Assembly (NCBI GenBank): GCA_947632595.1
Contig: CANRPY010000003.1
Location: 1-64,000 of the forward strand
Source: an uncultured Bacilli bacterium
GTDB lineage: Bacteria > Bacillota_I > Bacilli_A > RF39 > UBA660
Direction: 5' to 3'
DNA: 64,000 nucleotides
In this document: positions 2,158 to 3,689 of the stretch, in pieces
Layout: each line of letters begins with the position of its first letter
Numbering within the stretch: the stretch's first letter is position 1
Notes under the pieces: generated by a model
What the model was told of the DNA's origin: nothing
The model's input: the letters and a program-made list of their open reading frames with translations, nothing else
Databases searched by the model: none
Position numbers and translations under genes: made by a program

Positions 2158-2187
2158 TTGACCGTTTCGTATAGATTATTATATAAT
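2158..2187 (+). promoter_or_regulatory. Candidate sigma-A promoter for the acyltransferase (TTGACC-N18-TATAAT)
   Basis: ttgacc 2158-2163, tataat 2182-2187; RBS aaaggag at about 2212-2218 before ATG 2224. Confidence 0.6.
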
Positions 2188-2223
2188 TAATTTGATTTTA
2201 TAAGATTTCGAAAAGGAGATAAT

Positions 2224-3346
2224 ATGGTAAAACACAGAAGTTCAAATTTTGAATTATTAAGAATAGTCGCTATGCTATTTATTATCAGTTTTCATTATGT
2301 ATATAAAAGCGGTTATATTTTTGATAGTTTAACTATTCATTCCGTTATCATAAAAAGTTTTTATTTTTTAGGCGAACTCGGAGTAAACTTATTTATTTTA
2401 ATAACAGGTTATTTTCAGGTAAAGGGTAAGTTTTCTATTGAGAAATTAATTAAGTTAATTTTAGAAGTAAGTTTCTATTATATATTTACTTTTTTTATTC
2501 ATAATTATATATATATATATAGATGGGGCTTCTTTTACATATAGTATTAAAAAAATCTTTTTGTTATTTTTTTCCTTTATTTTTAATAGTTATTGGTTTA
2601 TTACAGCATATATCCTTTTATATATTTTAAGTCCATTTTTCAATAAGTTTGTAAGTAAAATATCACAAAATGATTTTAAAAAATTATTAGTAGTTCTCTT
2701 ATCTTTGTATTGTGCTATTCCAACTGTTCTTGGTCTTTTAAACAATAGCACTGAAACATTATTTTATTATAGTAGATTTATATGGCTTATCATTATGTAT
2801 TTGTTAGGTGCCTATATAAGGTTATATTCTTTAAAATTTTTTTCTAAAAAGAAAAATACTATCTTAATAGCAGCATGCTCATTTACTGTTATGGTTATAG
2901 GGATTATTATCATATATGTTTTTAGGGATTTCTTTGCCAAAATTGGTACAACCGAGGTCGCTTATTTTTGGACACCTAATTCTATTCCCATGTTATTATT
3001 AAGTGTTGCTATTTTCGAATTGTTTAAAGATATTAAACTAAAATACAATAAAATCATTAATACTTTGGCTTCCACTACATTAGGTATATATTTACTACAT
3101 GATAGTGTTTTGAATAAATATATTTGGAAGAATATATTTAGAACTTTAAAATGCTTAAATAGTAAGTATTATCTATTATACATTTTAGCATCCTCTATCA
3201 TTATCTTCTTGGTAGGAGCAATAATCGATCTCATAAGACAATTGTTTGAAAGAATAACTATTGGAAAGTTTTTTGAATCTAATTTATATCAAAAAATTAA
3301 GTTCAAATGTCAAAAAATGATTCATCATATTCTTAACTGTATTTGA
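2224..3346 (+). CDS. Acyltransferase 3 family membrane protein, interrupted by a frameshift at a (TA)8 tract (2506-2521); ORFs 2224-2544 and 2561-3346
   Basis: N-terminus NFELLRIVAMLFIISFHYV; the other frame directly after the TA tract reads DGASFTYSIKKIFLLFFSFIFNSYWFITAYILLYILSPFFN and continues to 3346. Confidence 0.8.
2506..2521. repeat. Dinucleotide (TA)8 microsatellite inside the acyltransferase coding region
   Basis: Read directly: aat-tatatatatatatata-gatggggc. Confidence 0.95.
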
Positions 3347-3389: not shown

Positions 3390-3689
3390 CTAATGCTCTG
3401 TTTTTATATATACACCATTTACCTTTTTGTATATTCTTTTAGCATTCTTTTTAATTTTATGTTCTATTTCTTCTCCTAAATCTAATCCTAATATTTCTGC
3501 TATTCCCATTAAGTATATTGCTACATCTGCAAGTTCTTCTCCTAAATCTTCTTTCTTCTTTAGCCATGCCATATATGCTTCACCCAATTCCCCATAGGCT
3601 AAACAAAATTCCATATTTACATCTGTTACATTAAATCCATGATTTACTTTATTTAGATATACATCTTTTTGTAATTGTTTAAAATTCAT
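3390..3689 (-). CDS. MazG-like nucleotide pyrophosphohydrolase
   Basis: 99 aa; AYGELGEAYMAWLKKKEDLGEELADVAIYLMGIAEILGLDL, all-alpha MazG-like EExxD pattern. Confidence 0.7.
   Translation of the reverse strand: MNFKQLQKDVYLNKVNHGFNVTDVNMEFCLAYGELGEAYMAWLKKKEDLGEELADVAIYLMGIAEILGLDLGEEIEHKIKKNAKRIYKKVNGVYIKTEH

Follow-up and report, generated by a model that had tools for sequence, protein, structure and literature searches.

An acyltransferase-3 (AT3) gene close to the end of a contig from an uncultivated, gut-type bacterium is split over two reading frames, and a (TA)8 tract lies inside the stretch where these frames overlap. This raises the question of whether the gene has simply been broken, or whether the tract sets its reading frame in such a way that expression can be switched off and on again. 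The window, i.e., the whole 64-kb stretch of DNA analysed here, is one end of contig C3 (87,030 bp) in a genome of 1.4 Mb assembled in 51 contigs.

Reading frames and protein family

The upstream frame runs from ATG 2224 to a TAG stop codon at 2542-2544 and encodes 106 aa. This confirms the sequence-only reading of this DNA, according to which translation ends at 2544 with eight TA units. The downstream frame is open until 3346 and is offset by +1 (2224 = 1 mod 3, 2561 = 2 mod 3), and the two frames overlap at 2471-2544. With this offset, the modulo-3 arithmetic of the same reading is right, as the gain of one unit or the loss of two joins the frames up to 3346 and gives a protein of about 374 aa. 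The (TA)8 tract is the sole run of at least seven TA units found by a pattern search of the genome (1,398,357 bp), and when the window was shuffled 100 times with its dinucleotide counts preserved, no such run arose.

Both parts of the gene match the Acyl_transf_3 profile (PF01757), the 5′ part at positions 3-101 (E 9.8e-7, 28.6 bits, cut-off 31 bits) and the 3′ part at positions 110-321 (65.5 bits, cut-off 31). Apart from the frame change, the gene contains no further lesion over 1.1 kb, and the earlier statement that both frames are otherwise undamaged agrees with the profile matches and with the open frame at 2471-3346. AT3 proteins move acyl groups across the membrane; their motifs include R-X10-H in TMH1 and RXXR, and the TMH3-TMH4 loop caps the inner cavity (PMC9833829). 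In the window gene, the R-X10-H motif lies intact in TMH1 (residues R13 and H24 of the upstream frame), and LGIYLLHD, a conserved segment, is undamaged as well. A C-terminal SGNH domain is absent, as the frame stops at 3346 directly after the AT3 domain, and the next gene (3390-3689) lies on the opposite strand. The gene product is a standalone AT3 membrane enzyme without a fused SGNH domain, and a separate partner may therefore complete the acyl transfer.

Upstream of the gene, the promoter and ribosome-binding site previously described as intact are both present (Table 1). Since promoter-like sites in this AT-rich region occur at chance level (12 found vs 14.0 expected), the promoter itself is weak evidence.

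The remainder of the 64-kb window is dense in long intact ORFs. Between the gene and the contig end, an RlaP-like remnant (165-446) matches profile positions 159-248 only and shows a frame change at an A8/T8 run near 471-478. A remnant of a second RhuM N-terminus (612-827), likewise at the contig end, lies beside the intact RhuM gene (936-1958).

Table 1. Features of the split AT3 gene in the window, and TA tracts in AT3 genes of relatives
Feature	Position	Strand	Basis or state
Candidate sigma-70-like promoter, TTGACC-N18-TATAAT	2158..2187	+	11/12 positions matched
Shine-Dalgarno-like AAAGGAG, 5 nt upstream of ATG 2224	2212..2218	+	Sequence
AT3 gene, 5′ part, from TMH1 to approximately the end of TMH3	2224..2544	+	PF01757 match, 47% to L025
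T7 run, alternative place of the frame switch	2490..2496	+	Homology scans leave T7 possible
(TA)8 tract at the TMH3 end / TMH3-4 loop, putative site of slippage	2506..2521	.	Sequence, genome-wide and shuffle counts
3′ part of gene, +1-offset frame; ORF 2561-3346 from first TTG	2471..3346	+	PF01757 match, open frame
L130	G833:C1		TA10, out of frame, 198 + 152 aa; profile 2-201 then 205-321 at tract
L182	G833:C6		TA9, out of frame near C-terminus
L193	G853:C10		TA9, out of frame; profile 2-153 then 153-323 at tract
L132	G826:C35		TA9, out of frame; further stop and A8 run upstream
L127	G987:C4		TA8, in frame, 323 aa

Position of the frame change

Intact orthologues align to both frames with identities of 43-54%; they are L085 and L087-L093 from the same family and L025, the closest cross-family homologue (Bulleidia extructa, L025/L067, at 45%). 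The source organism and B. extructa share a class, Bacilli in GTDB terms, and the family of the source organism is probably an RF39-like group. In one of the orthologues, L087 (G763), a G9 tract lies in frame within a locus of 23.5% GC, and a homologue from a Lachnospiraceae MAG (L078) has an in-frame G8 in the same TMH3-4 loop. A search of genome contigs with the window protein alone gave no match; the alignment-based search of these contigs returned 17 distant homologues, and plasmid, phage and viral collections yielded remote homologues only (24-31%). No second allele of the window gene was found in the searched collections, which hold no same-species relative.

To locate the frame change, chimeric translations were made that leave the first frame for the second at every codon of the overlap in turn, and each such switch was scored against profiles of 26 broad or 11 close homologues. 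The scores are nearly flat from about 2490 to 2541, with only about 2 bits of variation for the close profile, and clearly lower before about 2478, which confines the switch to about 2478-2541. Besides the tract, this span includes the T7 run at 2490-2496 and short G4/T4 runs 3′ of the tract. The earlier claim that the gene goes out of frame exactly at (TA)8 stands insofar as the tract lies inside the frame overlap, but its exactness is not retained, as the switch is placed at the run or at most about 30 bases from it.

Among the individual homologues, L025 alone favours a switch just after the tract (798-808 vs 777), where the first frame reads YRWGFF vs YRLGFF in L025. The closest homologue, L085, slightly favours a switch at the tract, and the others are neutral or lean against the post-tract site. 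A lesion 3′ of the tract, as suggested by YRLGFF in L025, was therefore not adopted as the main reading, given that the closer homologues lend it no backing, and is retained as a rival. The window protein is about five residues longer at the tract than its orthologues, which fits the expectation if the run expanded there. On the whole, homology permits a switch within (TA)8 without establishing the tract, as opposed to nearby bases, as its place.

AT3 genes with repeat tracts across the family

Tracts of at least eight TA units were sought in 376 family genomes, 47 of which contain at least one. With those from a previous scan of 27 genomes included, the set that was read comes to 81 distinct tracts, most of them intergenic. 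AT3 genes hold 6 of the 81 tracts against 0.18 expected (binomial P 3.6e-8), and 5 of 80 when the window is excluded (P 1.2e-6), where the expectation takes AT3 genes as about 0.22% of the genomes (95 genes × 1.1 kb in 46.5 Mb) and the null is the whole genome, not membrane genes, so that the control for chance arising from peptide composition in AT-rich membrane genes is incomplete. In two of the relatives listed in Table 1, L193 and L130, the break in the Pfam profile match coincides exactly with the tract. The tract positions in the AT3 proteins differ and are non-homologous, which favours separate origins. Furthermore, the IYIYI peptides among 137 AT3 ORFs are always encoded by a pure TA run and never by synonymous codons, which makes the run a feature at the DNA level, not at that of the peptide. 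Selection for the IYIYI peptide instead of the DNA run was rejected on the basis of this codon use.

We also tallied 95 AT3 genes from 36 genomes. Of these, 14 contain a long TA or G tract within the gene, a biased rate since the genomes were chosen mostly for TA tracts or orthologues. Eight of these genes are out of frame and six in frame (five OFF and four ON with TA tracts; three OFF and two ON with G tracts). Internal stops not due to contig ends were found in 3 of the 81 tract-free genes, and being out of frame is thus associated with the presence of a tract (8/14 vs 3/81, Fisher P 3e-6). In-frame AT runs also occur in G867 (10 units), G972 (7) and G762:C3:37788 (7); L212, with (AT)10, counts among the in-frame examples. 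Poly-G tracts are in frame in G763 (G9, in L087) and G761:C42 (G10), and out of frame in G762:C3:23480 (G9), G681:C45 (G8) and probably G942:C30 (G9 near the start). In L097, the profile match breaks at G9, covering 2-270 and then 276-324.

Other repeat-bearing loci in relatives

Poly-G runs of at least eight are abundant in G762, G763, G987, G734, G826 and G942, with 28 to more than 100 overlapping 8-mer matches per genome; the loci read from these genomes mostly have 21-28% GC, and most members of the window's genus lack such poly-G. From sequence, this abundance looks like large contingency repertoires. In L106 (G763:C1:1-2212), repeated genes about 970 bp apart carry G9 before a near-identical YLLIILVLLV membrane segment, and this arrangement is likely a phase-variable surface protein array. 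The same genome contains two tandem genes, L129 and L140 (G763:C2:9304 and 10366), with an in-frame TA run just after the start codon and a YIGSSNV motif that is SGNH/DltD-like by eye, with no Pfam match. Together with the AT3 orthologue L087 (G763:C2:14733, G9), these make three repeat-bearing genes within about 5.5 kb.

In G854, several genes (L151, L176, L177 and L179) start with MNKLKNRR(K/N)IYIYI, with 8-11 TA units directly after the start codon; some belong to ORFs of about 500 aa and are in frame, others are out of frame. In L150/L175 (G681:C9:7065-13850), apparent tandem repeat units have TA runs of 9-12 units at their ends; there are five of these runs, one about every 1.7 kb. In-frame TA9 tracts were found in a DUF6056 membrane protein (L157, G950:C47) and in a hexapeptide-repeat transferase (L144, G867:C6).

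We lean towards the view that this large family of small-genome uncultivated Bacilli relies on TA and poly-G slippage at multiple loci as a contingency system acting on surface proteins and on envelope acylation, into which AT3 genes would have been recruited repeatedly and independently. To our knowledge, this lineage of Bacilli is not known for phase variation, and a literature search for phase variation together with RF39 found nothing.

Proposed phase variation and alternative explanations

With a probability of roughly three in four, we read the AT3 gene as a phase-variable on/off switch that was sequenced in its OFF state. The probable task of the enzyme is to acylate a glycan of the cell envelope, with polysaccharide, teichoic acid and peptidoglycan as candidate substrates. 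The (TA)8 run in the TMH3-4 loop would gain or lose units through slipped-strand mispairing at replication, and one in three unit-number classes would fuse both frames into the protein of about 374 aa (ON). The eight-unit consensus would belong to the OFF class and yield the 106-aa stub with three helices, ending near TMH3, so that a full-length enzyme would need another unit-number class. Acylating and non-acylating cells would then coexist in the population, and we infer that the switch is reversible. Phase variation, already put forward from the sequence of the locus, is favoured by the comparison across relatives, as tracts occur in AT3 genes beyond chance, both ON and OFF states are found, and the breaks coincide with tracts. 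On the other hand, the source genome contains MutS, which tends to slow dinucleotide slippage, and this counts against phase variation here. A mismatch-repair-null mutator is not supported, given the presence of MutS.

An ordinary recent loss, in which a one-off indel in the tract, in T7 or just after the tract broke a gene that will now decay, is unlikely, yet it is the alternative to which we give the most weight. It draws on the bounding of the switch only to about 2478-2541, on the preference of L025 for the post-tract site and on the gene remnants within 2 kb (RlaP, 165-446; RhuM, 612-827). Relatives also contain plain AT3 pseudogenes, with a nonsense codon in L020, stops in L086, a frameshift unaccompanied by a long repeat in L096, and truncation by a transposase-like ORF in L008. 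Against decay speak the 1.1 kb free of any other lesion and the retention of both R-X10-H and LGIYLLHD. The region of the break holds the one long repeat of the genome, and AT3 breaks in the family associate with tracts (8/14 vs 3/81), which further argues against such a loss.

That the frame change is a consensus or assembly error, with a fixed in-frame unit number in the true gene, seems very improbable. The gene does lie 2.2 kb from the end of C3 in a 51-contig assembly, but at 16 bp the run is short by the standards of most read types, the remaining 64-kb window is full of long intact ORFs, and a like arrangement is seen in several unrelated assemblies. We consider it least probable that the ribosome or RNA polymerase slips on UAUAUA, in which case some full-length enzyme would always be made and the unit number would tune its amount. 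After a -2 slip, UAU AUA UAU AUA should re-pair perfectly at both codons; a stimulatory element is not known here, however, and most AT3 genes of the family are plain single ORFs, which indicates that slippage is no conserved requirement.

Comparison with known systems

If phase variation of the window gene is true, the resulting random acylation of envelope glycans would be relevant to phage sensitivity and host immune recognition. An uncultivated, probably commensal family of Bacilli shows the repeat-tract hallmark many times. Genomes with phase variation at multiple loci are scarce outside pathogens, which a review names as an open question (PMC11868660), and the tract counts of this family bear on this question.

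The oafA gene of Haemophilus influenzae encodes an AT3 enzyme that O-acetylates LOS and is phase-variable (PMC9558356, citing Fox et al. 2005); it is frameshifted in some sequenced strains, and its switching is associated with carriage vs invasive isolates (PMC9558356). As in oafA, the AT3 reading frame in the window would be set by a simple repeat. In contrast to the tetranucleotide repeat of oafA, which serves Gram-negative LOS, the window gene has a TA dinucleotide tract deep in the gene and belongs to uncultivated Bacilli. In Salmonella Typhi, AT3-dependent O-antigen acetylation by oafB is likewise switched on and off in the population, but this switching is epigenetic, through upstream DNA methylation, and the protein is SGNH-fused, while the window gene encodes AT3 only (PMC9558356). 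Intragenic dinucleotide frame switches are also described for the type III methyltransferase of Mycoplasma mycoides with AG12 (PMC3498834) and for the CT repeats of H. pylori oipA (PMC10564699), in each case with another gene and another dinucleotide. In the Gram-positive Streptococcus pneumoniae, peptidoglycan O-acetylation provides an example of random on/off acetylation of an envelope glycan, which proceeds via programmed DNA inversions and not via repeat slippage (PMC12324116). Combined, AT3 phase variation and dinucleotide frame switching are already known, and what is new here is the TA tract in an AT3 gene, the uncultivated Bacilli host and the apparent multi-locus recurrence across the family.
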